49,673 bases of DNA from Hyphomicrobiales bacterium (GTDB lineage Bacteria; Pseudomonadota; Alphaproteobacteria; Rhizobiales; Xanthobacteraceae). Below, one piece after another: positions 8,365-36,197 of the stretch. The position numbers were made by a program, and so were the translations under genes. The stretch is taken from the NCBI GenBank assembly GCA_017305455.1, contig JAFKKO010000129.1:1-49673 (forward strand), given 5' to 3'. The notes under the pieces were generated by a model. It saw only the letters and a program-made list of their open reading frames with translations. It had not been told where the DNA came from and ran no database searches. Position 1 is the stretch's first letter; each line of letters opens with the position of its first letter.

Positions 8365-9558
8365 CTAGCGGTGCTTGGTCTTCCACAGCAGCAGGGAGCC
8401 GAAGACCGCGGCGAAGCCGAAGAACGCAAGGCACCACGCCAACGCGGCGAGATAAAGCAGCGCATTCTGCCAGTCCGGCACCAGCGCAGCCTCAACGCGA
8501 AACAGCGACGCCGCCACCACGGCCATGTAGATTCCTCGGGTCGCAGCCGATGCAACCAGACGCTGGCCGGTATGGCTGAGGCTGGCGCGCGTCATCACCG
8601 CCAGCGTCATGATGCCGGCGGCGCCCGTCATCCAGGCGTGCATGCCGGCGCTCGCCGGCGCCAGGTCGAGCGCCGACGCAGCCGCGAGCAGAAATCCGAG
8701 CGGAATGAAAACGTAGCCGATATGCAGGATCAGCAACAAGGGATCGCGGCTTGTCCGATCGCCGGCCCAGCGCCCGAGCCGCGCGGCATGCAGCATCGCG
8801 GCGATCACACATGCGGCGCCGGTGGCGGCACCGAAGGGACGCGCGCTCCACCACGCCAGCACCAGCGCGCTCGCGGTCACCACCACGATGTCGAAGCGGC
8901 CGAACGGAATCGGCAGGCGACCCGGATTCTCGCGCACCAGCCAGTTGCGGGTGAAGCTTGGAATGATACGCCCGCCGATCAGCGACACCAGCACGATCAC
9001 AGCGGCGATGCCGGCGCGGAGGGAAATATCCGCCGCGCCGTCGACATGCGCCTCGATGTGAAAGGCGACATTGCACAGCAGCAGGAGCAGCACCAGCGCC
9101 ACTACCTTGAGATTGCGCCAGTTGCGTCCCGCCACCACCTCGCGACCCGCGGCGGCGGCGATCAGGGCCAGAAACGACGCATCGATCAGCATGGCGAGGC
9201 TCCAGCCGATCGCGTCCGAGAACGTCACCGCCACGCGCCCGAGCGCCCAGATCATCACCAGAACGAGAAGCGGCCGGCCGCGATAGGGCAGATGCCCGGT
9301 CCAGTTCGGAATCGCCGTGAACAGAAAACCGGCGATGACTGCGGCGAGATAGCCGTACAGCATCTCGTGCACATGCCAGTCGCGCGGCGCGAAAACCGTG
9401 CGCAGCGACAGATCGCCCATGAACACCGGCAACCAGATCGCGATGGCGAGGCCGGCGTAGAGCGCGCCGAACAGAAAGAACGGCCGGAAGCCGTAGGACA
9501 GAAACGCCGAGCCATAATAGTTGCCCAGACGCGAGATGGGTGTGTGATTCAAGACCAT
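8365..9558 (-). CDS. nnrS: NnrS family membrane protein (first copy)
   Basis: 397 residues with about 12 membrane segments. The family start is clear: SYGFRPFFLFGALYAGLAIA, then DWHVHEMLYGYLAAVIAGFL and AIPNWTGHLPYRG. NnrS is a haem- and copper-containing inner-membrane protein of unknown reaction, linked to nitric oxide tolerance and denitrification in alphaproteobacteria and Vibrio. The conserved HxHEM histidines and further His residues in later segments (FHIEAH) are visible. It lies 96 bases downstream of the alternative-oxidase-like gene on the same strand, with no clear promoter between, so the two probably form an operon. A second NnrS copy lies at 16372-17580, translationally coupled to an ABC transporter. 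Confidence 0.9.
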   Translation of the reverse strand: MVLNHTPISRLGNYYGSAFLSYGFRPFFLFGALYAGLAIAIWLPVFMGDLSLRTVFAPRDWHVHEMLYGYLAAVIAGFLFTAIPNWTGHLPYRGRPLLVLVMIWALGRVAVTFSDAIGWSLAMLIDASFLALIAAAAGREVVAGRNWRNLKVVALVLLLLLCNVAFHIEAHVDGAADISLRAGIAAVIVLVSLIGGRIIPSFTRNWLVRENPGRLPIPFGRFDIVVVTASALVLAWWSARPFGAATGAACVIAAMLHAARLGRWAGDRTSRDPLLLILHIGYVFIPLGFLLAAASALDLAPASAGMHAWMTGAAGIMTLAVMTRASLSHTGQRLVASAATRGIYMAVVAASLFRVEAALVPDWQNALLYLAALAWCLAFFGFAAVFGSLLLWKTKHR

Positions 9559-9654
9559 GATGCCGGTTCGCCAGGACCAGCATACCCCGCGCCCGGCGAC
9601 TTGCCAGCGTCACCTTTGCCAGCATGGCCGTCCTTCGCAGGCGGCGGATCGACG

Positions 9655-10314
9655 CTACGCCGGAGCGCCCGGCGGTTCCGGCAGAACCTTGCCGGCCATC
9701 CGCGCGTCGGCGAAGGCGTGGTGGATGTCGCGATGGATCGCTTCATCCTCCCGCATCGCCTTGATCATGTCGCTGAGCGTCGCGCCGGAGCGGAGATTCC
9801 AGTAATCGCGCGCCGCGAGCGGCGCCGGCCAGTCGGTCTGTTCGCCGGCCTCGATCCGCGTCAGCAATTCGGAATAGCCCGCGATGGAGCGTTCGGCGAG
9901 ATAGCCGGCGAGACGATGCGCGGTGCGCGCCGAGACCAGATAGAGTAGGAAGTTGGCGTTGTAGAACAGGCTCTGCGCGATCGCGATCAGCAATCGTTCC
10001 GAGGAGCTCGGCTGCACGATGGCGACGAACGCCATCAGATGGAAACGCTGGTTGTCGGCCTCGTCCATGAAGGCGCGCACCCAGCCGCGATCGTCGATCA
10101 TCCGGCGCAGACAGCGCAAATGCAAAAAGGTGGCCGCCACCATCGCCGGCACCGCCGCGATGGTCTCGAGCACGATCACCCGGTCGCCGTAGCGGCGGCC
10201 GAACAGCCTGTCGGCCACCGACAGCATCGCGCGTACCGAGAGATCTGCCACCCGGTCCGAGAATGTCGTCGGGACGTGATGACGGACGTGATCGACTTTG
10301 TTGATGTTCAGCAT
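9655..10314 (-). CDS. Alternative-oxidase-family protein with two canonical iron ligands replaced
   Basis: 219 residues that align through their whole length with alternative oxidase (AOX), the diiron ubiquinol oxidase that reduces O2 without pumping protons. Family blocks are LETIAAVPAMV (E50), LRCLRRM, GWVRAFMDEADNQRFHLMAF, AHRLAGYL, YWNLRSGATL and DEAIHRDIHH (E191, H194). Two expected Glu ligands are missing. The canonical NERMH block reads NQRFH (Q89, H92 kept), and the canonical LEEEA block reads LAERS (A140 at the ligand position). The tyrosine that follows (Y147) is kept. The protein may therefore bind iron differently or do something other than oxidase chemistry. The ATG at 10314 gives the usual short bacterial N-terminus. 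It is divergent from a Crp/Fnr gene, with an exact FixK2-type box between them, and followed by nnrS. Confidence 0.85.
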   Translation of the reverse strand: MLNINKVDHVRHHVPTTFSDRVADLSVRAMLSVADRLFGRRYGDRVIVLETIAAVPAMVAATFLHLRCLRRMIDDRGWVRAFMDEADNQRFHLMAFVAIVQPSSSERLLIAIAQSLFYNANFLLYLVSARTAHRLAGYLAERSIAGYSELLTRIEAGEQTDWPAPLAARDYWNLRSGATLSDMIKAMREDEAIHRDIHHAFADARMAGKVLPEPPGAPA

Positions 10315-10455
10315 GGATGCCCCATCGGACAATGCTCGCGCAGGACAGAGCGGCCGGCCGCCGCTCCACTGCGACATAACGGGGACAGTATGGTCACAAT
10401 GAAGGCCCGGACATTGCTCCGGCACAACGACTGCCACACCGACCCCCGTTCCGGC

Positions 10456-10469
10456 TTGCGCCAAATCAA
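10456..10469. promoter_or_regulatory. FixK2/FNR-type box between the AOX-like and Crp/Fnr genes
   Basis: TTGCGCCAAATCAA matches the FixK2 consensus TTG[A/C]-N6-[T/G]CAA exactly, and also the NnrR-type TTG-N8-CAA. It is centred about 150 bases before the AOX-like start and about 70 bases before the regulator start, so it could act in both directions. Confidence 0.6.
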
Positions 10470-10533
10470 TCACAAGCAGGGCCGTTGCAACTAGATTGAT
10501 CTAGGACAGATTTCGGCGGTTTTGGTACGCCCA

Positions 10534-11238
10534 ATGTGGCATGGAGCAGCATCAGACTGCGGACTTCTGGAAAAGGCCGAGCTTTTTCGCGGTGTTCCGA
10601 GCGGCGCACTTGCCGAAATCCAGGCTTCCTCGTTCCGCAGGCATCTTTCGGCCGACGAAGCCCTGGTTCGCCAGGGCGACCCGGCGGAGACCCTGCATAT
10701 CGTGCTGTCGGGGCGGCTGCGTGTCACGCAAACCACGCCAGAAGGCCACCAGATCATCCTCCGTTACCTCGGGCCTGACGAAACCGTCGGCTGTACGGCG
10801 TTGTCCGGCGGCGCCCATTACCCCGGAACGGTGACGGCCGTCGATGACGGCAAGCTGCTCGGCTGGAGCGTGACTGCGATCCGGCAGGTCATGGTGACCT
10901 ATCCGCAGGTTGCGATGAACGCGGTCGCGATCCTGGGCGCGCGCTATGTGGAGATGCAGACGCGGCTGCGCGAACGCGCCACCCAGAATGTCGAGCGGCG
11001 GATCGCGCATACGGTGCTGCGGCTGACGCGGCAGGCCGGCCGCCGCACCACGCGCGGCATCGAGATTGCTTTTCCGCTCTCGCGCCAGGATCTCGCGGAA
11101 ATGGCAGGGACCACCCTGCACACGGTCAGCCGGACTCTCAGCGGCTGGGAAAGCCGGGGGATCGTCGACAGCGGCCGCCGCCTCGTGGTGGTCTGCAAGC
11201 TCGACGTGCTGTCATCGATCGCCAACACGCCGTCCTGA
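10534..11238 (+). CDS. Crp/Fnr family transcriptional regulator (Dnr/NnrR-like)
   Basis: About 234 residues: an N-terminal cyclic-nucleotide-binding-type beta-roll (LFRGVPSGALAEIQ, VRQGDPAETLHIVLSGRLRV, GPDETVGCTALSGGAHYPGT), a dimer helix and a C-terminal winged helix with FPLSRQDLAEMAGTTLHTVS then RTLSGWESRGIV. The four-cysteine cluster of true FNR is absent, with only one N-terminal Cys, so direct O2 sensing by a 4Fe-4S cluster is unlikely. The pattern fits the Dnr/NnrR branch that responds to nitric oxide through haem. It is divergent from the AOX-like/nnrS operon and upstream of an iron-related operon containing a second nnrS, which makes it the probable local regulator. A TTG at 10522 is an alternative start. 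Confidence 0.88.
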   Translation: MWHGAASDCGLLEKAELFRGVPSGALAEIQASSFRRHLSADEALVRQGDPAETLHIVLSGRLRVTQTTPEGHQIILRYLGPDETVGCTALSGGAHYPGTVTAVDDGKLLGWSVTAIRQVMVTYPQVAMNAVAILGARYVEMQTRLRERATQNVERRIAHTVLRLTRQAGRRTTRGIEIAFPLSRQDLAEMAGTTLHTVSRTLSGWESRGIVDSGRRLVVVCKLDVLSSIANTPS

Positions 11239-11299
11239 CGCTCGCCCCTGAATGATTTTCGCTCCTTAGAATGATTCACGTTCCGACGGTGCCATGCAC

Positions 11300-11313
11300 T
11301 TGATTTGGCGCAA
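11300..11313. promoter_or_regulatory. FixK2/FNR-type box in the leader of the TonB receptor operon
   Basis: TTGATTTGGCGCAA matches TTG[A/C]-N6-[T/G]CAA exactly and has a perfect TTGAT half-site. It lies in the 302-base gap between the Crp/Fnr gene and the receptor gene, about 240 bases before the receptor ATG. The rest of this gap holds the Irr-type box at 11486 and no gene that I can support. Confidence 0.55.
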
Positions 11314-11485
11314 ACACATCGCCTGCGGTTTCTCATACACGAGAAGGCGATCAAGACAGCCCGATTGCCATCCAGATCGATCCTTGGCGTTCACGCAACG
11401 CCGCAGCTGAAGCAGCATCCATGCCACATTGACAAATCTCGGTGTGGTGTGGATGCCTGCAAAAAGATACATTTATAAATCATCT

Positions 11486-11502
11486 TTTAGAATCGATCTA
11501 AA
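11486..11502. promoter_or_regulatory. Irr-type iron control element (ICE) before the TonB receptor gene
   Basis: TTTAGAATCGATCTAAA fits the alphaproteobacterial ICE pattern TTTAGAA-N3-TTCTAAA with a single mismatch and the correct 17-base length. It lies 38 bases before the receptor ATG. Irr is the haem-responsive iron regulator of this group, so the operon is predicted to respond to iron status. Confidence 0.7.
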
Positions 11503-11540
11503 CAGCAAGCCTTCCTTGAGGGCTTCGGGGACAACAGGGC

Positions 11541-13787
11541 ATGACGATGGGGATGAAGTCGAACCGCGAAACCGGGATCAGCGCGCGCGCGGCCGCGCCG
11601 AAGGCCGCCAGCAGGACGGACATCGTTTCCCCGCTCGCGGTCGCGCTGGTGCTCTGCACGGGTGCGAGCAACACGAGTTTCGCGCAATCGGCGGTGCCCG
11701 GCGTTCAGATGTCGCTGGAGCCGATCATCGTCGAAGGCACCGCACAAAATCCGACGGAGAAACTGCGCGATCAGATCAACGCGCTGCCGGGCGGCGCGAC
11801 GCTGGTGACGTCGGATCAGTTTCCCGACACCGCCAATCTCACGCTGTCGAGGGCTCTGAGCACCGTGCCGGGTGTCGTGGTGCAGGACTTCTTCGGCGGC
11901 AATGACCAGCCGCGGGTGCAGATCCGCGGCTCAGGCCTGCAGCAGAACCCGGTCGAGCGCGGCATTCTGGTGCTGCAGAACGGCCTGCCGATCAACCGCG
12001 CCGATGGCTCCTACATCGTCGGCTTCGCCAATCCGCAGCAGGCGGATTCGATGGAAATCTACCGCGGCTACCTCGCCAACCGGCTCGGCGCCACGGTGCT
12101 GGGCGGCGCCATCAACTTCGCATCGCCCACCGGTTCGTTCTCACCGGGCTCGCAGGTGAGCGTGAGCGGCGGCAGTTTCGGACAGGCGAATGTCGCGGCG
12201 CAGACCGGCTTCAAGAAAGACAATGTCGACGGCATGCTGCAGGCCGACATCAGCCGCCGCGACGGCTACCGCACCTACAACGGTTCGCAGCGCACCAGCG
12301 CCAGCGTCAATGTCGGCGCGGAGCTCTCCGAAAACGTCACCACCCGCTTCTTCGCCGGCTACACCGAACTTGGCTTCGATGTCGCGGGACCGCTGTCCAA
12401 GTCACAGTTGCAATCAAATCCGCGGCAGGTCGGCACCGGCCCCGGTGCCGGCGGCATCAATTCCGGCCCGAACGTCGTTCGCGACAGGCCGCGCCGCGAA
12501 GCCGATCAATTCCTGATCGGATCGCGCACCACCGCGACCTTCGGCCCCCATGTGTTCGACGTCGCGCTTGGCTACACCTACACCAACGACATGTTCCGCT
12601 TCCCGATCACCTCAGGCGTGCGCACCACCAATGGCGGCGACTTCACCGGTCTTGTCCGCTATGCTTACAAGCCGAACGAAGCAGCATTGCTGCCGCTGCT
12701 CGAGAGCACCGCGCAATACACCGTGGGCTCGGCCGATCGCGGCTATTATCTCAATCAGGGCGGCCAGACCGGCGCCATGGTCGGCGCCAATGACCTCAAG
12801 GCGTCGACGCTGTCGCTCTATTCCGGGCTCAACGTGCCGGTGTGGCAGGCCTTCTATGTTTCGCCTTCGATCTCGTACTCCCATGCGACGCGCGAAAATC
12901 AGGATCTCTACGGCCTCCCGACGCGCCCCACCGCGGTCTACAATCCGCCGAATACGTTGCAGCCCAATGGGTCGTTCGCAACGGTTAATAACAGCTACAA
13001 CCGGACCTATAGCGGCTGGAATCCCAGCCTCGCTCTGAGTTATCGGCCCGACAACAACACCACGCTCTACACCGCCGTGAGCCACAGCTTCGAGCCGCCG
13101 ACCCATGACGATCTTATCGCGCTCGTCGGCGGCACGCCCAACACCAGCGGCAACTCGTTCAAGACGCCCGACCTGAAAGCCCAGACCGCGACCACCGCGG
13201 AGGCCGGATGGCGCGGCCGCTTCGACAGGTTCTCGTGGGATGCCGTAGTTTACTATTCGTGGGTCAACAACGAACTGCTCAGCCTGCGCGACGCCACCGG
13301 CGCGCAACTCGGCGCCATCAACGCCGACAAAACCACGCATTTCGGCGTGGAGCTTGGCGCCGGCGCACGGCTCACCGACCAGATCAGCGCGCGGGTCGCC
13401 TATACCTATCAGGACTTCCGCTTCAGCCACGATCCGGTCCGCGGCAACAACCGTCTTGCCGGCGCGCCGCAGCACCTGATCAACGCCCTGCTGCAATATC
13501 AGGCCACCGATGCGTGGAGACTGCAGGGCGCAGTGCGCTGGAGCCCGAGCAAGACACCGGTCGACAACATGAACACGCTGTATGCCGATCCGTATGTGGT
13601 CGTCGATCTGCGCACCGAATACAAGCTCGACCAGACCTTCACGCTGTTCGCCGAAGTCACCAACGTCTTCAACGAGAACTATGCCGCCTCGACGCTGATC
13701 CTTGACACCATGCAGCGTGCCGATCAGGCTGCGTTCATGCCTGGTGATGGGCGCGGCTACTTCGGAGGCATCAAGGCAAGATTCTGA
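11541..13787 (+). CDS. TonB-dependent outer-membrane receptor
   Basis: 748 residues: an extended N-terminus with a signal region ending near TSFAQS, a TonB-box-like stretch (LEPIIVEG) at about residue 60, a plug domain (PGGATLVTSDQFPDTANLTL, VPGVVVQDFFGGNDQPRVQI then RGSG) and a 22-strand barrel ending in the usual aromatic residue (GGIKARF). Such receptors import scarce ligands, typically ferric siderophores, haem, cobalamin or copper complexes, using energy from TonB. The Irr-type box upstream points to an iron-linked ligand. It starts an operon with a periplasmic binding protein, permease, ATPase and NnrS, whose genes overlap by four bases at each later junction. The ligand cannot be read from the sequence. 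Confidence 0.92.
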   Translation: MTMGMKSNRETGISARAAAPKAASRTDIVSPLAVALVLCTGASNTSFAQSAVPGVQMSLEPIIVEGTAQNPTEKLRDQINALPGGATLVTSDQFPDTANLTLSRALSTVPGVVVQDFFGGNDQPRVQIRGSGLQQNPVERGILVLQNGLPINRADGSYIVGFANPQQADSMEIYRGYLANRLGATVLGGAINFASPTGSFSPGSQVSVSGGSFGQANVAAQTGFKKDNVDGMLQADISRRDGYRTYNGSQRTSASVNVGAELSENVTTRFFAGYTELGFDVAGPLSKSQLQSNPRQVGTGPGAGGINSGPNVVRDRPRREADQFLIGSRTTATFGPHVFDVALGYTYTNDMFRFPITSGVRTTNGGDFTGLVRYAYKPNEAALLPLLESTAQYTVGSADRGYYLNQGGQTGAMVGANDLKASTLSLYSGLNVPVWQAFYVSPSISYSHATRENQDLYGLPTRPTAVYNPPNTLQPNGSFATVNNSYNRTYSGWNPSLALSYRPDNNTTLYTAVSHSFEPPTHDDLIALVGGTPNTSGNSFKTPDLKAQTATTAEAGWRGRFDRFSWDAVVYYSWVNNELLSLRDATGAQLGAINADKTTHFGVELGAGARLTDQISARVAYTYQDFRFSHDPVRGNNRLAGAPQHLINALLQYQATDAWRLQGAVRWSPSKTPVDNMNTLYADPYVVVDLRTEYKLDQTFTLFAEVTNVFNENYAASTLILDTMQRADQAAFMPGDGRGYFGGIKARF

Positions 13788-13851
13788 TCCCCTTGCCCGC
13801 GCGGGTGGCGTTCTTGCGATGCCGTTCGCTTTCGTTCGACAGGAGTATGTC

Positions 13852-14823
13852 ATGTTGAATCGCCGCACTTTCGTCACCGCGCTCTCCACGGCGATTCTCG
13901 CGCGTCCTGCCACCCTGCGCGCCGCGGAGCCGCTGACGCTGTGGGGGCCGCCCGCCGCGCCGTCGATCGTGCTGACGCAGGCCATTGCATCCGGCGCGCT
14001 CAAGGACATCGCGCCGGGCGCGACCTTCAAAAGCTGGCGCACCCCCGACGAGATGCGCGCCGGCCTCAGCTCCGGCAACATGACCGCCGTGATTGTGCCG
14101 ACCTATGTCGCGGCCAATCTCTACAATCGCGGGCTTGGCGTGCGGCTGGCCAATGTCATGACCAAGGGCCTGCTTTATGTCGTCGCGCCCACCGGCACCG
14201 TCACCGATATCGCCAGCCTGAAAGGCAAGCGCCTCGCCGTTCCGTTCCGCAACGACATGCCGGATTTCATTTTCCGCCGTCTGCTGGTGACGGCAAAGCT
14301 GCAGCCGTCGGATATTGTGATCGACTATTCGGGCACGCCGCCCGAGGCGATCCAGATGCTGGTCGCCGGCCGTGTCGATGCGGCGCTGCTTGCCGAACCG
14401 GCCAGCAGCGCCGCGATTCTGCGCGCGATGCTGGCGGCAGGCCAGACGCTGGAACGGGCGATCGATTGCCAGAAGGCATGGGCCGCCGCGACTGGCTACA
14501 CCACGATCCCGCAGGCCGGCCTCGCCATCACCGACAAGCTCGCAAGCCAGATCGGCGCCGATGGCGCCGCGGCGCTGCAAGCCGCGCTGGAGAATGCGGT
14601 CCAGAGCGTCAATCAGAATCCGGGCGCGGCCGCCGCGATCGCCGCTCCGGCGCTGGAACTGCCCGCGCCGGTGATCGAACGCTCGATCGCCTTCAGCAAT
14701 CTGGTTGCTGAACGCGCCACGCGCGTCCGCAACGACCTGACAGCGCTGTTCGAGACCCTCGCCAAGGACGATCTGCGCATTATCGGCGGCAAATTGCCGG
14801 ACGATCGGTTCTACGCCTTGTGA
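13852..14823 (+). CDS. ABC transporter substrate-binding protein, NitT/TauT type
   Basis: 323 residues with an N-terminal export signal of twin-arginine character (NRRTFVTAL, cleavage near LRAAEP). A type II periplasmic-binding fold of the nitrate/sulfonate/taurine family follows: LTLWGPPAAPSIVLTQAIAS, DIASLKGKRLAVPFRNDMPD, PPEAIQMLVAGRVDAALLAE and PASSAAIL. AGGAG lies 7 bases before the ATG. It should deliver the ligand taken up by the TonB receptor, 64 bases upstream, to the permease whose GTG start overlaps its stop codon. NitT/TauT-type systems paired with TonB receptors suggest an organic metal chelate or cofactor precursor rather than nitrate itself. Confidence 0.88.
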   Translation: MLNRRTFVTALSTAILARPATLRAAEPLTLWGPPAAPSIVLTQAIASGALKDIAPGATFKSWRTPDEMRAGLSSGNMTAVIVPTYVAANLYNRGLGVRLANVMTKGLLYVVAPTGTVTDIASLKGKRLAVPFRNDMPDFIFRRLLVTAKLQPSDIVIDYSGTPPEAIQMLVAGRVDAALLAEPASSAAILRAMLAAGQTLERAIDCQKAWAAATGYTTIPQAGLAITDKLASQIGADGAAALQAALENAVQSVNQNPGAAAAIAAPALELPAPVIERSIAFSNLVAERATRVRNDLTALFETLAKDDLRIIGGKLPDDRFYAL

Positions 14824-15638
14824 AGCCGCTCACGCACCTTCTCGCATGGACCGGCTGGGCCGGCCGCTATGTCTGGTCGGCATGGGCGGGCGCCGCCGGC
14901 CTGTTCTGCCTCGCCGCCGCGTGGCAGGCCGGGCATGAAATCTACGGCTCGTTCGTGCTGCCCTCGCCGTGGGAGACGGTGCTCGCCGTCGGGAGCATCG
15001 TTCATGAGGCGAGCTTCGCCCGCGCCGCCGGCGAGACGGCAAGCCGCTCGCTGGCCGGCTTCGCGCTCGCGGTCTCGATCGGCAGCATCGCCGGAATCAT
15101 CGCCGGTTATTCCTTCGCCACCATGCGGCTGACGCGGCCGATCGTCACCGTGATCCTCGGCGTACCGCCGATCGCATGGATCGTGCTGGCGCTGATCTGG
15201 TTCGGCTCCAATGGCGGATCGGCGGTGCTGACGGTCGTGGTCGCCGCGCTGCCGATCTCGTTCGCGGGCGGACTTCAGGGCGTCGCCACCCGCGACCGCG
15301 CGCTCGACCAGATGGCACGCTCCTTCGGCGCCGGCGCATGGATGCGCTTCCGCACCATCACGCTGCCGCATCTTGTCTCGTATCTGTTTCCGGCATGGAC
15401 CACCACGGCCGGCAGCGCCTGGAAAATCACCGTGATGGCGGAGCTGCTGTCGAACACCGGCGGAATCGGCGGCGACCTTGCCACCGCCCGCGCCCTGTTC
15501 GACATTCCGCGGGTGATGGCGCTGATCGTCATCACCGTGGTGTTTGCGCTGTTTACCGAATATGCGCTGCTCGATCCGATCCGCGACCGTCTGGAGAAAT
15601 GGCGCGAGGCCGGCGTGCCGTGGGGGGTGAAGCGATGA
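14820..15638 (+). CDS. ABC transporter permease, NitT/TauT (SsuC) type
   Basis: 272 residues with about six membrane segments. The permease-ATPase contact loop (EAA motif) reads LDQMARSFGAGAWMRFRTIT, followed by LPHLVSYLFPAWTTTAGSAW. FVLPSPWETV and GVPPIAWIVLALIWFG are typical of SsuC/TauC proteins. The start is GTG at 14820, overlapping the binding-protein stop (GTGA). The end overlaps the ATPase start (ATGA). Translational coupling implies a stoichiometric complex in the inner membrane. Confidence 0.9.
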   Translation: MKPLTHLLAWTGWAGRYVWSAWAGAAGLFCLAAAWQAGHEIYGSFVLPSPWETVLAVGSIVHEASFARAAGETASRSLAGFALAVSIGSIAGIIAGYSFATMRLTRPIVTVILGVPPIAWIVLALIWFGSNGGSAVLTVVVAALPISFAGGLQGVATRDRALDQMARSFGAGAWMRFRTITLPHLVSYLFPAWTTTAGSAWKITVMAELLSNTGGIGGDLATARALFDIPRVMALIVITVVFALFTEYALLDPIRDRLEKWREAGVPWGVKR

Positions 15639-16375
15639 AGCTCGCTCTCGATGGCGTCGGTCACGCCTTTTTCGGCCGCGAGGTGTTCGAAGACATCCAT
15701 CTGTCGCTGGCGCCGGGCGAGATCGTCGCGCTGCTCGGCCCCTCCGGCTGCGGCAAGACCACGCTGCTGCAGATCGCGGCAGGTCTGGTCGATCCGCTGC
15801 GCGGGCGGGTGCGGCGCGCCTATCGCCGCCATGCCGTGGTGTTTCAGGAGCCGCGGCTGCTGCCCTGGATGACCGCGCGCGACAACATCGCCTATGGCCT
15901 GCGCGCCAGCGGCGCGACAAGGCCGTCCGCCGACATCATCGAGCGGCGCGGCCGCGAGGTTGGGCTTCTGACGCACGACCTCGACAAATATCCGGCGGAA
16001 TTGTCCGGCGGCATGCGCCAGCGCGCGGCGGTGGCGCGGGCGCTGGCGGTCGATCCGGACGTGATCTTTTTCGACGAGCCGTTCACCGCTGTCGATGTCG
16101 GCCTCAAGCGGGCCTTGCAGGATCTGGTGATCGGCGCGGCGGCGCGCGAGCACTTCTCGGCGCTGTTCGTCACCCACGATCTCGCCGAGGCGGTGCGCAT
16201 CGCCGACCGCCTCGCCGTGCTGTCCGAAGGTCATAGCGGATTCGTCACCGAGCGCCGCATCGAAGGCCGACCCGGCGAGCGCAACGATCGCTTCATTTTT
16301 GATCTGGTCGAAACCTGGTCGCACGATCCGGCTTTCGCCGAACTGTTCGACAGCGCGCGGAAAGGCCTGTCGTGA
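15635..16375 (+). CDS. ABC transporter ATP-binding protein, NitT/TauT (SsuB) type
   Basis: 246 residues with Walker A GPSGCGKTT near residue 38, Q-loop VVFQEPRLLPWMTARDNIAY, signature LSGGMRQR, Walker B VIFFDEPFTAVD and H-loop VTHDLAEAV. It powers the permease encoded just upstream. The start ATG overlaps the permease stop, and the stop overlaps the GTG start of the NnrS gene. It is slightly compact (nucleotide-binding domain plus a short C-terminal extension), as usual for this subfamily. Confidence 0.93.
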   Translation: MKLALDGVGHAFFGREVFEDIHLSLAPGEIVALLGPSGCGKTTLLQIAAGLVDPLRGRVRRAYRRHAVVFQEPRLLPWMTARDNIAYGLRASGATRPSADIIERRGREVGLLTHDLDKYPAELSGGMRQRAAVARALAVDPDVIFFDEPFTAVDVGLKRALQDLVIGAAAREHFSALFVTHDLAEAVRIADRLAVLSEGHSGFVTERRIEGRPGERNDRFIFDLVETWSHDPAFAELFDSARKGLS

Positions 16376-17580
16376 CCATCGCGTTGAAAGCAGACATCCG
16401 GCGCGACCATCCGCTGCTCGCGGAAGGCCTGATGCTGTTCTTTCCGGCTGCCGCGCTTCACGCCATGCTCTCGCCGCTGGCCTGGGTGACGTTGTTCGGT
16501 TTCTCGCTGCCGTTCACGCAGGCCATCCCGTCCACGCAATGGCATGCGCATGAGATGATCTTCGGCACCTATGGCGCGGCACTGGCGGGCTTTCTCACCT
16601 CCGCCGTCGCGGAATGGACCGACACGCCGCCGCGCAAGGGCCGCATGCTGGTCCTGCTGCTGTCGTTCTGGCTGCCGGGACGCATCATCGGCCTGCTCGG
16701 AATCGAGCCGCTGGTGGCGCTCGCCGGTCTCACCGACTTCGCCTTCCTGTCGATGCTGTTCTGGTTCGTGCTGACACCCCTGCTCGAGCGGCGCAACACA
16801 CGCCATGCATCCTTCGCGGTCTGGGCCTTCCTGTTCGCGCTGGCCGAGGCCGGGATCCGCATCGCCTGGCTGACCGGGCAGTTCGATCTCGCCGGACGAC
16901 TGCTGCAGGCATCGCTCAACGTCTTCCTGATCTTCTTCGCGCTCGCGGTCGCGCGCATCAATGTCGTGGTCATCAATCTCGCGCTCGACCCCAGCGGCAA
17001 CACCACGCCCTACCGGCCGCATCCCGGACGGCAGAACCTCGCCGCCGGCATGGTTGCCCTCTACGCCATGACGGCGCTGGCGTTTCCGCACTCGCAGGTC
17101 CCGGCCTATCTGGCGCTGGCCGCCGCGGCGGCGTTCTTCGACCGCCTCGCCGAATGGTTCATCGGCGCCGCCGTGCTGCGCACGCAGGTGCTGGCGCTCG
17201 CGGGCGCCAACGCTTTCGCCGGCGGCGGCTTCCTGCTGATCGGCCTGTCCGGGCTCGGTGCTCCGATCGCTATCGGCAGCGGCATCCACATGCTTGCTGT
17301 CGGCAGTCTCGGCCTCGCGGTGATGGCGGTCCTCGTGATCGCCGGATTGCGCCACACCGGCCGGCCGCTGGTGTTGCCGCGCGCGGCGCATGCGGCGATC
17401 GTTCTGATGGCCTGCGCCGGCCTTGTCCGCGTGCTGCCGGAACTTGGCATCGGCGGCGCGGTGACAGGTCTGCACTACGCGGCCAGCGCGCTGTTGTGGT
17501 CCGCGGCCTTCGCCGTCTGGTTCGCCGGGTTCCTGCCTTTGTTCCTGCATCCCGTACGGACCGCGGAAGGCTGCCAATAG
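16372..17580 (+). CDS. nnrS: NnrS family membrane protein (second copy), coupled to an ABC transporter
   Basis: 402 residues with about 12 membrane segments. NnrS blocks are TQWHAHEMIFGTYGAALAGF, LTSAVAEWTDTPPRKGRMLV and INVVVINLAL. The WHAHEM histidines, candidate haem/copper ligands, are present. It starts with GTG overlapping the ATPase stop codon, so its synthesis is tied to that of the transporter. It differs markedly from the copy at 8365-9558, for example in lacking the SYGFRPFF start, so these are old paralogues rather than a recent duplication. The family's reaction is unknown. Co-expression with a TonB/ABC uptake route suggests that it handles the imported metal or cofactor, or protects it from nitric oxide. 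Confidence 0.88.
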   Translation: MTIALKADIRRDHPLLAEGLMLFFPAAALHAMLSPLAWVTLFGFSLPFTQAIPSTQWHAHEMIFGTYGAALAGFLTSAVAEWTDTPPRKGRMLVLLLSFWLPGRIIGLLGIEPLVALAGLTDFAFLSMLFWFVLTPLLERRNTRHASFAVWAFLFALAEAGIRIAWLTGQFDLAGRLLQASLNVFLIFFALAVARINVVVINLALDPSGNTTPYRPHPGRQNLAAGMVALYAMTALAFPHSQVPAYLALAAAAAFFDRLAEWFIGAAVLRTQVLALAGANAFAGGGFLLIGLSGLGAPIAIGSGIHMLAVGSLGLAVMAVLVIAGLRHTGRPLVLPRAAHAAIVLMACAGLVRVLPELGIGGAVTGLHYAASALLWSAAFAVWFAGFLPLFLHPVRTAEGCQ

Positions 17581-17597: not shown

Positions 17598-17611
17598 TTG
17601 CGCTAGCGCAA
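17598..17611. promoter_or_regulatory. FixK2/FNR-type box before hemN
   Basis: TTGCGCTAGCGCAA is a perfect palindrome and an exact match to TTG[A/C]-N6-[T/G]CAA, 78 bases before the hemN ATG. FixK2 control of hemN genes is established in Bradyrhizobium, which supports the reading. Confidence 0.75.
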
Positions 17612-17689
17612 ACGGCGCCAGACCCGGACAGGCTAAGCATTTGAGTGCAGCCGCGGCTCCGCCGATGGCGTTCCGATGTTGAAAGCGCC

Positions 17690-19075
17690 ATGTCCGTAAC
17701 TCTTGACGACAAGCCGTCCCTTCTCCGCAGCGATCTCAGCGCACGCTATGGCGACGAGCGCCTGCCGCGCTACACCAGCTATCCCACCGCGCCGCATTTC
17801 TCCGATGCGGTTTCCGCGCAAACCTATCGTCAGTGGCTGCAGTCGATTGCCGAGGACCAGATCGGATCGATCTATCTGCACATGCCGTTCTGCCGCTCGA
17901 TGTGCTGGTATTGCGGTTGCCACACCACCATCACAAAAAAGGACGAGCCGATCGCCGCCTATCTCGAGGCGCTGCGCCGCGAGATCGACCTCGTGGCCGA
18001 ATGCATCGGACGTCCCCTGCCGGTCAATCACATCCATTTCGGCGGCGGCACCCCCACCATCATCTCGCCCGAGCAGTTCAGCGGCCTCATTCATCTGCTG
18101 GAGCGGCGTTTCGTGTTGCAGCCCGGCGCCGAGATTGCCGTCGAGATCGACCCGCGCACGCTGACGGCGGAAATGATCCGCGAGCTCGGCGCCAGCGGCG
18201 TAACCCGCGCCAGCCTCGGCGTGCAGAGCTTCGATCCGGTGGTGCAGCGCGCGATCAACCGCATCCAGAGCTTCGAGGAGACCGCCGCCGCGACGGACGG
18301 ACTGCGCGCCGCCGGCATCAGTGGCGTCAATTTCGACCTGATCTACGGCCTGCCGCATCAGACCGCGCAATCCTGCGTCGAGACGGTGAAGCAAGCCCTC
18401 CGGCTCGCGCCCGACCGGTTCTCGGTGTTCGGCTATGCCCATGTGCCGGCGTTCAAGAAGCATCAGCGCAAGATCGACGAGGAGGTGCTGCCCGACGGCT
18501 CCGGCCGGCATCAGCAGGTCGAGGCGATCAATCGCGCGTTGATCGATGCCGGCTATCGACAGATCGGACTCGATCATTTCGCCCGTGCCGACGACAGCCT
18601 CGCCAAAGCGCAAGCCGACGGCAAATTGCATCGCAATTTTCAGGGCTACACCACCGATGCCAGCGATACGCTGATCGGCGTCGGCGCCAGCGCGATCGGC
18701 CGCCTCAACCAGGGCTATGTCCAGAACGAGATCGCGATCCGGTCCTACTGCACCCAGATCGGCGACAACGAGCTTGCGACGCGCAAGGGCTATATCCTCA
18801 CTGCCGACGACCGCCTGCGGGCCGATATCATCGAGCGGCTGATGTGCGATCTTGGTGTCGATCTGGCTACGGTCGGCGCGCTCCACCGGGCCTCGCCGGA
18901 GCAATTGCTGGGGCAGGCCGCGCGGCTGCGGCCACTGATCGACGACGGGATTGTTAGCGTCACAGGGTCACGGATCGCCATCGCTGACAATGCCCGGCAT
19001 CTGGTGCGCAGCGTCGCCGCTGCATTCGACGCCTATATCGGCACTTCAGGCCGCACGCACAGCCGCGCCGTCTAG
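17690..19075 (+). CDS. hemN: Oxygen-independent coproporphyrinogen III dehydrogenase
   Basis: 461 residues of the radical-SAM enzyme that converts coproporphyrinogen III to protoporphyrinogen IX without O2, in the cytoplasm. The SAM-cluster motif is C68-x3-C72-x2-C75 in HMPFCRSMCWYCGC. The HemN-type extra elements PRYTSYPTAPHF, HFGGGTPTIISP, LGVQSFDP and IYGLPHQT follow, and the length matches HemN rather than the shorter HemW (about 380). The ATG at 17690 precedes the conserved N-terminus by the usual distance. An exact FixK2-type box lies upstream, so it should be induced when oxygen is low. It fits with the neighbouring ubiTUV genes, which do for ubiquinone what HemN does for haem. Confidence 0.95.
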   Translation: MSVTLDDKPSLLRSDLSARYGDERLPRYTSYPTAPHFSDAVSAQTYRQWLQSIAEDQIGSIYLHMPFCRSMCWYCGCHTTITKKDEPIAAYLEALRREIDLVAECIGRPLPVNHIHFGGGTPTIISPEQFSGLIHLLERRFVLQPGAEIAVEIDPRTLTAEMIRELGASGVTRASLGVQSFDPVVQRAINRIQSFEETAAATDGLRAAGISGVNFDLIYGLPHQTAQSCVETVKQALRLAPDRFSVFGYAHVPAFKKHQRKIDEEVLPDGSGRHQQVEAINRALIDAGYRQIGLDHFARADDSLAKAQADGKLHRNFQGYTTDASDTLIGVGASAIGRLNQGYVQNEIAIRSYCTQIGDNELATRKGYILTADDRLRADIIERLMCDLGVDLATVGALHRASPEQLLGQAARLRPLIDDGIVSVTGSRIAIADNARHLVRSVAAAFDAYIGTSGRTHSRAV

Positions 19076-22167: not shown

Positions 22168-22181
22168 TTGCTCCGGAGCAA
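22168..22181. promoter_or_regulatory. FixK2/FNR-type box between ubiT and ubiD
   Basis: TTGCTCCGGAGCAA is a perfect palindrome and exact match to TTG[A/C]-N6-[T/G]CAA, centred about 53 bases before ubiT and about 53 bases before ubiD. It could activate both. Anaerobic control of ubiT/ubiUV by FNR is established in E. coli. Confidence 0.75.
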
Positions 22182-23766: not shown

Positions 23767-24786
23767 GCGCATCACCTCGTTATGCATGAAGCCGCGCTGG
23801 GCATAGGCCAGCGTCATTTCGGCCAGCGCCGGGGCGAGCAGGAAGCCGTGGCGATAAAGCCCGTTGATCGAGATCTTCTGCCGGCTGACCACGATCCGCG
23901 GCAGATTGTCGGGAAACGCCGGGCGCAGTCCCGCGCCGATCTCGACGATCCGCGCCTCGCCGAATGCCGGATGCACCGTATACGCCGCGCTCAACAATTC
24001 CAGCGCCGAGCGGACGCTGACGCCGGTGTCCTCGCTTTCGATGCTGGTCGCGCCGATCATGAACAGGTTGTCCTCGCGCGGGATCACATAGATCGGCCAG
24101 CGTGGATGGATCAGCCGCACCGGACGCGCAAACTCCACCTCCGCCGTCTCGACGATCACCATCTCGCCCTTGACACCGCGCAGTTCGGGATGCTGGTCGC
24201 GCGCGCCAAGCCCGCGGCAATCGATCACGATCCGGTCCGGCTGTTGCGCCAGAATCTCCAGATCGCATTCGGATTCAAACCGGATGATGCCGCCCGCGGC
24301 GCGCAGCTGCTCATGGAGCAGCGGCAGCACCCGACGCGGCTCGACATGCCCCTCGCCGGCGAAGAACAGTCCTTCGCGGAATTGCCCCTCCAGCGCGGGC
24401 TCGAGTTCGGCAATGCCTTGCGCATCGAGCCGCCGATGGTCGGTCGTCATGCGGGCAAAGCGCTCGAAATCGGCGCGGTCGCGGGCATGCGCCACCACCA
24501 GCGAGCCGTTGAACGGCGTTTCGGGCAGATAGGTCCGCCACAAATCGAGCGCGCGATGGCCGAGATGGGTGATCAGCGGTTCGGCGGCTTCGGCTTCGCA
24601 CCACGGCGCCAGCATACCGCCGGCCCAGTGGCTGGTCGCCTGCGTCATCTCCGCGGTGTCGCGCTCCAGCAAAGTGACCCGGTAGCCGGCACGCGCGAAC
24701 AGCAACGCTTGCCAGCTACCGGCCACCCCTGCCCCGATGACCACAACGGACGTCTCTCCCCTCGGGGCAATCGACTCCTGATACAT
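23758..24786 (-). CDS. thiO: Glycine oxidase ThiO (FAD-dependent), thiamine thiazole synthesis
   Basis: 342 residues of the D-amino-acid-oxidase superfamily. The FAD-binding GxGxxG reads VVVIGAGVAGSWQALLFARA near residue 14. WAGGMLAPWCEAE, a ThiO hallmark, follows, with IPREDNLFMIGATS and GLRPAFPDNLP towards the C-terminus. ThiO oxidises glycine to the imine needed for the thiazole ring of thiamine, using O2. A TPP riboswitch directly before the gene confirms the pathway. The ATG at 24786 abuts the riboswitch, whose conserved GAAGGGA also forms the ribosome-binding site. A GTG 14 codons inside is an alternative start. thiS, thiG, thiE and thiC are not beside it, which is unusual. Confidence 0.9.
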   Translation of the reverse strand: MYQESIAPRGETSVVVIGAGVAGSWQALLFARAGYRVTLLERDTAEMTQATSHWAGGMLAPWCEAEAAEPLITHLGHRALDLWRTYLPETPFNGSLVVAHARDRADFERFARMTTDHRRLDAQGIAELEPALEGQFREGLFFAGEGHVEPRRVLPLLHEQLRAAGGIIRFESECDLEILAQQPDRIVIDCRGLGARDQHPELRGVKGEMVIVETAEVEFARPVRLIHPRWPIYVIPREDNLFMIGATSIESEDTGVSVRSALELLSAAYTVHPAFGEARIVEIGAGLRPAFPDNLPRIVVSRQKISINGLYRHGFLLAPALAEMTLAYAQRGFMHNEVMRSA

Positions 24787-24884
24787 CCCAGTCCCTTCGC
24801 CGGCACAACCCGGATCAGGTTCAAAGGGTCACCGCAGCACGATCCAGCGGTTTCTCAGCTCCTTGACGAAGCTCCCCTCGGAAC
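24787..24884 (-). promoter_or_regulatory. TPP riboswitch (THI element)
   Basis: On the minus strand the aptamer shows AGGGGAGC (P1/P2 region), GCTGAGA at 24859-24853, ACCCTTTGAACCTGATC at 24829-24813 and GCGAAGGGA ending at 24792, in the conserved order of thiamine pyrophosphate riboswitches. The 3' strand of P1 (CTGGGA) ends on the A of the start codon. TPP binding should therefore hide the ribosome-binding site directly, without a separate expression platform. Confidence 0.93.
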
Positions 24885-24921
24885 AACCCTCGCAGATAAT
24901 CTGAAATCGAGCCGAAGCGCG

Positions 24922-36107: not shown

Positions 36108-36197
36108 TGGCGGAGAGGGAGGGATTCGAACCCCCGATAGGCTTGCACCTATGCCGCATTTCGAGTGCGGTGCATTCAACCACTCTGCCACCTCTCC
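36108..36197 (-). tRNA. tRNA-Ser (anticodon CGA)
   Basis: A 90-base serine tRNA with acceptor stem GGAGAGG / CCTCTCC, discriminator G and encoded CCA. The anticodon stem-loop is CCGCA-CTCGAAA-TGCGG with anticodon CGA, followed by a long variable arm and the T loop TTCGAAT. Its 3' end is the putative attachment site, repeated at 31476 and, in shorter form, at 26656. Confidence 0.97.

Follow-up and report, generated by a model that had tools for sequence, protein, structure and literature searches.

A conserved operon joins a TonB-ABC importer to a distinct NnrS protein in Afipia-like bacteria and beyond

NnrS proteins (PF05940) are widespread in bacteria that produce or encounter nitric oxide (NO), canonical members belong to the NsrR, DNR and NnrR regulons, and their biochemical role is unsettled. 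Importers of the NitT/TauT type, which are ATP-binding cassette (ABC) transporters of nitrate, taurine or aliphatic sulfonates, have a three-gene architecture. The TonB-dependent receptors OprC and NosA are reportedly copper receptors tied to nitrous oxide reduction; the copper site of OprC is formed by Cys and Met residues. Here we describe an operon that unites a TonB-dependent receptor, a NitT/TauT-type ABC importer and an NnrS protein. It lies in the window, the whole 49,673-nucleotide stretch that was analysed, which is the entire contig JAFKKO010000129.1 (G000:C119) of an Afipia-like alphaproteobacterium with a genome of 3.7 Mb, the closest named relatives of which are Afipia.

A conserved TonB-ABC-NnrS operon

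Behind a TonB-dependent receptor the window encodes, all on one strand, the substrate-binding protein (SBP), permease and ATPase of an ABC importer, followed by an NnrS dedicated to it (NnrS2). These four, accompanied in many genomes by a TonB receptor of a single family, constitute a conserved operon, and we regard it as close to certain that the system exists and forms one unit. In the window the operon comprises:

11541..13787, plus strand: TonB-dependent receptor, 748 aa (Pfam Plug, TonB barrel)
13852..14823, plus strand: SBP of the NMT1/SsuA type, 323 aa (Pfam NMT1_2)
14820..15638, plus strand: ABC permease, 272 aa (Pfam BPD_transp_1; GTGA overlap with the SBP gene)
15635..16375, plus strand: ABC ATPase, 246 aa (Pfam ABC_tran; ATGA overlap with the permease gene)
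16372..17580, plus strand: nnrS2, ABC-linked NnrS, 402 aa (Pfam PF05940, 244.2 bits; GTGA overlap with the ATPase gene)

The four-base overlaps from which the initial annotation had deduced a single machine can be read in the sequence as GTGA, ATGA and GTGA for SBP, permease, ATPase and nnrS2; the TonB gene takes no part in them, 64 bases separating it from the SBP start.

Full-length orthologues of the SBP were found in 9 of 61 genomes (the window's own, which is counted, and its relatives), eight of the nine belonging to the genus. The SBP, permease, ATPase and NnrS2 occur together in 8/8 orthologous regions from other genomes, nnrS2 being split over two frames in L033 and truncated by a contig end in L039, a region of only 11.8 kb that ends at contig ends, and 7/8 also have a receptor of the window's family. 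L033 is on the same contig as L041, from the close relative G009, where nnrS2 lies in two overlapping frames (L041:11473-12689), owing to a frameshift or a sequencing error.

A scan of named genomes with an alignment of the SBP kept 80 of 84 loci; these were found via the SBP, so that linkage among them arises partly by selection. They span Rhizobiales, Rhodobacterales, Azospirillum, Thalassospira, beta- and gammaproteobacteria, Campylobacteraceae and three bacteria of actinobacterial or unplaced origin. In 74/80 loci one strand carries the SBP, permease, ATPase and NnrS2 genes together, an arrangement far beyond chance. The six others run into a contig end (L064), have an unrecognised part (L096, L105) or hold no recognised NnrS (L115, L118, L119). 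Methyltransferase genes follow the ABC genes in L115, one such family recurring in L113 (Campylobacteraceae, after NnrS2) and in L119. Receptors belonging to the window's family occur in 46/80 loci, a TonB-type barrel of another branch stands just 5' of the SBP in L066, L080, L109 and L113 (four others tested), and L063 and L114 gave no Pfam match just 5' of the SBP. The four-base overlap recurs in 67/75 ATPase-NnrS2 pairs, in 57/62 adjacent permease-ATPase pairs (15 more pairs are not adjacent) and in 32/76 adjacent SBP-permease pairs (3 more are not adjacent).

The cassette is carried by plasmids of Agrobacterium and Shinella and, with the SBP gene inverted, by a Sulfurimonas plasmid. Paracoccus denitrificans has it in full, receptor included, on a large replicon, and in Neisseria gonorrhoeae (L170, a 2.17 Mb record filed as a plasmid) SBP, permease, ATPase and NnrS stand in order on one strand with no recognised receptor. 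The Neisseria receptor TdfF was considered as a possible relative; no tie to the operon was established, and we make no claim for it. Recurring neighbour families are few (the commonest is present in 9/80 loci), as expected for a unit moving between genomes, and we infer that the cassette moves between lineages. A Diaphorobacter plasmid (L171:6579-18759) has genes for a TonB receptor, an SBP, a cupin, a TonB receptor, CobN and a TonB receptor, with no permease, ATPase or NnrS recognised in that stretch.

Confinement to very close relatives had been set beforehand as the outcome that would count against the linkage; the result favours the linkage, as the unit occurs in alpha-, beta- and gammaproteobacteria and in Campylobacterota. 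What stands of the proposed single machine is that the NitT/TauT-type ABC genes and NnrS stay joined, usually with a TonB receptor; its extension to both arms of the locus, considered below, does not.

NnrS2: branch, residues and predicted fold

The window contains two diverged nnrS genes, as initially annotated, with 6.8 kb between NnrS1 and NnrS2, which are 28% identical, and a third nnrS is found on another contig of the same genome (G000:C136). NnrS2 belongs to PF05940 (cut-off 28 bits), matching profile positions 1-370 of 371. Since an iterated profile took in both NnrS1 and NnrS2, profile scores could not separate them, and a tree was therefore used (maximum likelihood by a quick method, midpoint root, n=133, with a long-branch warning), from the input of which NnrS pieces of fewer than 300 residues or below 100 bits had been removed. 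All 74 ABC-linked NnrS lie on one side of one branch (SH-aLRT 95). L124, which adjoins them, is labelled unlinked by the distance rule, yet permease, ATPase and SBP genes stand just before it; the other 58 NnrS, NnrS1 of the window among them, are unlinked. In a less biased sample of 190 class genomes, where the DNA of 29 further top-scoring loci and of six low-scoring regions was examined, the linked side holds only NnrS2 of the window and L163, both ABC-linked in the loci examined. According to this tree, the ABC-linked NnrS is a branch of its own.

The residues of NnrS2 also depart from the canonical-subfamily set. The His residues common in unlinked NnrS correspond to window positions 58, 60, 277, 306 and 328; among linked NnrS, His 58, 306 and 328 are kept at 0.97-1.0 and His 60 at 0.73, whereas His 277, present in 0.93 of the unlinked rows, is present in 0.0 of the linked ones. 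The Met 316 and Arg 323 typical of unlinked NnrS are likewise absent from NnrS2, which has specific residues of its own (E81, N202, D206-P207, R215-P-H217-P-G-R220, D257 and E261) that include the loop N202...DP...RPH217PGR.

No relative of NnrS was found by sequence among solved structures, up to E 0.1. The structural model of NnrS2 has 12 helices, with the predicted fold of subunit I of heme-copper oxidases and NO reductases, structure matches being judged by their titles. H58 and H60 are placed in helix 54-82 of the model and H306 in helix 301-328, and the agreement with helices 2 and 10, which bear the low-spin haem His ligands, is by order only.

Denitrification context and regulation

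Cassette-bearing genomes are enriched in NosZ. Within the genus, NosZ is found in 8/8 cassette genomes and in 3/21 genomes without the cassette (Fisher p 4e-5, kinship not being taken into account in the p values), and NarG is over its cut-off in 7/8 and 9/21, respectively. The narG match of the window's own genome (G000:C45:11337-14579) has an internal TAG and covers positions 1-1083 of 1235. Among 49 genomes behind 50 selected loci of the 80, NosZ is present in 29, NirK in 17 and NirS in 13, and one or other of the three in 38; the background for NosZ is 17 of 190 class genomes including the window's own, thus 16/189, and these 189 may themselves hold further cassettes. NapA was found in 2 of the 11 cassette genomes without NosZ, NirK and NirS. 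It follows from these counts that the cassette marks denitrifiers and nitrate respirers and is tied to no single enzyme. Its direct neighbours fit such a context: Agrobacterium has napEFDABC, NnrU and U32 proteins there, Martelella a protein of the plastocyanin/azurin family and Martelella radicis NarG, and Rrf2, NnrU, MoeA, hemerythrin and major facilitator superfamily (MFS) proteins are neighbours too.

The putative regulatory sites and the genes around the operon are:

8365..9558, minus strand: nnrS1, canonical NnrS, 397 aa (Pfam PF05940, 351.8 bits, cut-off 28; groups with unlinked NnrS)
9655..10473, minus strand: alternative oxidase (AOX)-like protein, open reading frame (ORF) of 272 aa (Pfam PF01786, 212.8 bits)
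10456..10469, minus strand: Fnr/NnrR-type box TTGATTTGGCGCAA, lying between the regulator gene and the AOX-nnrS1 arm (repeated exactly at 11300)
10522..11238, plus strand: Crp/Fnr-family regulator (Pfam cNMP_binding, HTH_Crp_2; recognition helix GTTLHTVSR)
11300..11313, plus strand: Fnr/NnrR-type box TTGATTTGGCGCAA, upstream of the TonB operon (pattern search)
17598..17611, plus strand: NnrR-type box TTGCGCTAGCGCAA, upstream of hemN (general-pattern match)
17645..19075, plus strand: hemN, oxygen-independent coproporphyrinogen III oxidase (NCBIfam TIGR00538, 432.4 bits, cut-off 324.95)

A Crp/Fnr regulator between the arms and nnrS1 behind an AOX-like gene, both claimed initially, were borne out by the Pfam matches, and the regulator may be NnrR-like. 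The 14-base box TTGATTTGGCGCAA is identical before both arms, while 100 shuffles give a mean of 0.00. The general pattern TTGMKNNNNMKCAA is matched 5 times in the window (1.2 expected); three of these matches are at the locus, namely both TTGATTTGGCGCAA boxes and the TTGCGCTAGCGCAA box before hemN, which directly follows the operon, and two are outside it, at 22168 and 26475. The NnrR consensus is of the TTGcg-N4-cgCAA type, as given in the available part of PMC1274295, and nosR of Bradyrhizobium is preceded by a hybrid box of the same type, as given in that of PMC6710368. By this pattern the box at 11300 is a putative hybrid site and that at 17598 a putative NnrR-type site. Fnr/NnrR-type boxes were found upstream of 24 of 79 operons of relatives, in regions of 20-450 bases before the first matched domain, against 0.4 expected from single-base shuffling (L105, with no recognised SBP, was left out). 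A Crp/Fnr gene scoring above 150 bits lies within 19/80 loci, and stands beside the SBP or the receptor in two plasmid records.

Under zinc depletion, P. denitrificans raises the SBP Pden_4169 6.9-fold according to RNA-seq and 11-fold according to qPCR, as it does norC and nirS (available part of PMC5387054). Pden_4169 would be the SBP of the P. denitrificans cassette, to judge solely by its position about 28 kb from znuB-znuC-zur. Regulation and genome context together point to denitrification.

Cargo, proposed mechanism and known systems

The solved sequences closest to the SBP are named nitrate, sulfonate, taurine and THI5-type proteins. Its conserved residues are polar or aromatic (R, W, D, N, F, E and Q types), including W62, D66, R69, N89, N92, N101, N134, D135, E165, E182, R202, W210 and Q221, and no His, Met or Cys is conserved at 85% in 67 sequences. 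The 46 receptors of the family, the window's included, have 204 positions conserved at at least 95%; no Cys is conserved among them, and the single Cys of the window's receptor, residue 39, is probably in the signal peptide. An SBP without conserved His, Met or Cys and a receptor with a single Cys make a bare metal ion an unlikely cargo, and the residue pattern agrees better with a polar organic ligand or with a metal carried by an organic molecule. Hints in favour of a metal cargo are the NosZ link, the haem and copper content of NnrS (available part of PMC10256816), a gene for a siderophore-interacting protein upstream in L102, and, in Diaphorobacter, cobN accompanied by three genes for TonB receptors. 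Next to the Stutzerimonas cassette, L120:12800-18903 holds a Crp/Fnr gene, a gene for Slam-type surface lipoprotein assembly, an ORF of 345 aa and a long ORF resembling a receptor, which may together form a haem uptake set.

We propose that the operon most likely imports a ligand, possibly a metal complex, on which NnrS2 acts; that the ligand is a metal complex passed on to NnrS, as initially suggested, is possible. Falling oxygen or the appearance of NO would be the trigger, one specific ligand would be imported in two energised steps, by TonB and then by the ABC transporter, and NnrS2, as an inner-membrane haem protein, would act on the imported ligand or on what the ligand delivers. The cargo would most likely be a small chelate or carrier that supplies metal to the Cu- and Fe-rich denitrification enzymes; the haem of NnrS2 would reduce or denitrosylate the metal centre of this cargo, freeing the metal where NO would otherwise trap it. 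We offer this metal-carrier mechanism, from TonB-ABC import to the action of the NnrS2 haem on the metal centre, tentatively, as somewhat short of an even chance. A more far-reaching version we consider unlikely: NnrS would be an oxidase-fold protein minus the oxygen-reducing metal pair, one branch of which was harnessed to a TonB-ABC importer for the haem-powered unloading of a metal carrier, NnrS2 moving an electron or an NO group on or off the carrier and thus permitting metal uptake despite NO.

Several observations weigh against the proposed metal-carrier importer, beginning with the residue pattern just described, which speaks against a bare ion, and with the fact that no member yielded a ligand. 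The ABC genes occur without a recognised NnrS in three relatives, two of them actinobacterial and one unplaced, on a 4.4 kb contig. The enzymatic link is loose: NirK, over its cut-off in 3/8 cassette genomes of the genus and 5/21 others, shows no clear link and was rejected as a partner, NosZ is ruled out as a strict partner by its absence from 20 of the 49 cassette genomes, and 9/49 are without NosZ, NirK, NirS and NapA, NapA being sought only in the 11 and NarG not sought. No strict box was found upstream of 55/79 operons or upstream of that of P. denitrificans, and the available part of PMC5387054 lists no change of Pden_4169 in Zn-chelated medium. As to the fold, Foldseek gave no match for the NnrS2 model at E 0.001 or better, and a common fold shows no function. 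The His ligands of CuB or FeB sit in helices 6 and 7 of the oxidases; no His is conserved at 85% or more within helices 171-205 and 218-237 of the NnrS2 model. Finally, no Rfam match was obtained at the gathering score in seven loci, and a vitamin riboswitch at the operon was rejected. The Rfam matches of the window, neither of them at the operon, are a thiamine pyrophosphate (TPP) riboswitch (24774-24888, minus strand, 74.3 bits) and a tRNA gene (36111-36197, minus strand).

The alternative that survives best, a doubtful one in our view, has a metal-free organic compound as the cargo (a vitamin, a quinone or tetrapyrrole precursor, or an N or S compound), with NnrS2 keeping import working under NO or using the compound. 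The names of the solved sequences closest to the SBP and its conserved polar and aromatic residues would suit such a ligand, and so would the U32 proteins, UbiD and UbiX that adjoin the operon in Agrobacterium and the methyltransferase gene that comes next in L115 and L113; however, simple small organic compounds seldom need a TonB receptor, the seven loci show no riboswitch, and the NosZ enrichment speaks for metal. It is improbable that the cassette serves as an ordinary importer of nitrate, sulfonate or taurine with NnrS2 as merely co-transcribed protection from NO, even though one plasmid record (H17) names the SBP a nitrate ABC transporter protein and pden4169 is termed a putative nitrate transporter in the available part of PMC5387054. 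The SBP (40.4 vs 163.5, SsuA family), the permease (48.8 vs 209.05, NtrB) and the ATPase (143.8 vs 291.8, NtrCD) score far below the NCBIfam cut-offs of the nitrate, taurine and sulfonate members listed, and a plain importer of this kind was rejected on these scores. Nitrate uptake, moreover, needs no TonB receptor, and the ABC-linked NnrS, on its own branch, is found with ABC genes in two phyla. That the AOX-NnrS1 and TonB-ABC-NnrS2 arms work as one module around the regulator, as initially annotated, is very improbable: the identical 14-base box faces each arm and one close relative (G009; L033, on the contig of L041) has the same layout, but its region is the only one of the eight orthologous regions with the AOX-NnrS1 arm, which is missing from the other seven (one of them, L039, cut at its contig ends), and NnrS1 groups with ordinary NnrS in the tree.

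The true start of the AOX-like protein is likely an internal ATG near 10314, to judge from comparison with L041. An alternative oxidase has a full diiron ligand set of four Glu and two His. Despite its PF01786 score, the AOX-like protein does not have this set: in the window (9655-10473, minus strand) and in L041 (4777-5586, minus strand) Gln replaces the Glu of the NERMH motif of trypanosome AOX, which we take to be a diiron ligand. The same Gln in both implies that an altered metal site has been kept in the window and its close relative.

Whatever its cargo, an NnrS branch bound to one importer provides an experimental handle, in that what the importer carries should indicate what NnrS does, and the oxidase/NO reductase fold of the NnrS2 model yields specific haem-ligand predictions. 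Should a metal carrier be what is imported, the operon would tie the supply of metal to the reduction of nitrous oxide in soils and sediments.

The initial statement that no described system has this composition is not contradicted by the papers listed in the literature on NnrS with TonB, ABC transporter, copper, heme or denitrification, a body of mostly open-access texts available in part, which does not prove absence. As far as seen, all component families are known, and what is new is that they occur in a constant combination, that this NnrS forms a separate branch and that an oxidase fold is predicted for it (the last stated without an aimed literature search). The closest solved receptor by sequence is PqqU/YncD (E 2.2e-24 and 7.5e-24), although the window's receptor scores 114.6 bits against a cut-off of 1200 for PqqU (NCBIfam NF041535), and PqqU was rejected. 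OprC and NosA resemble it as TonB receptors of NosZ-bearing organisms; an OprC-type copper receptor was rejected on the Cys pattern given above. Compared with subunit I of heme-copper oxidases and NO reductases (CcoN, NorB), NnrS2 has about 10% identity and no conserved His in helices 6-7, and the operon of the window encodes no oxidase partner subunit. NnrS2 shares with canonical NnrS the family, His 58, 306 and 328 and, before part of the operons, a box of the nitrogen-oxide-regulator type (available part of PMC1274295), and differs in its branch, in the overlap of its gene with an ABC importer gene and in lacking His 277, Met 316 and Arg 323. With the NitT/TauT-type importers the cassette shares the three-gene architecture and the Pfam families, while falling below the specific NCBIfam cut-offs listed, and to this architecture it adds a TonB receptor and an NnrS.

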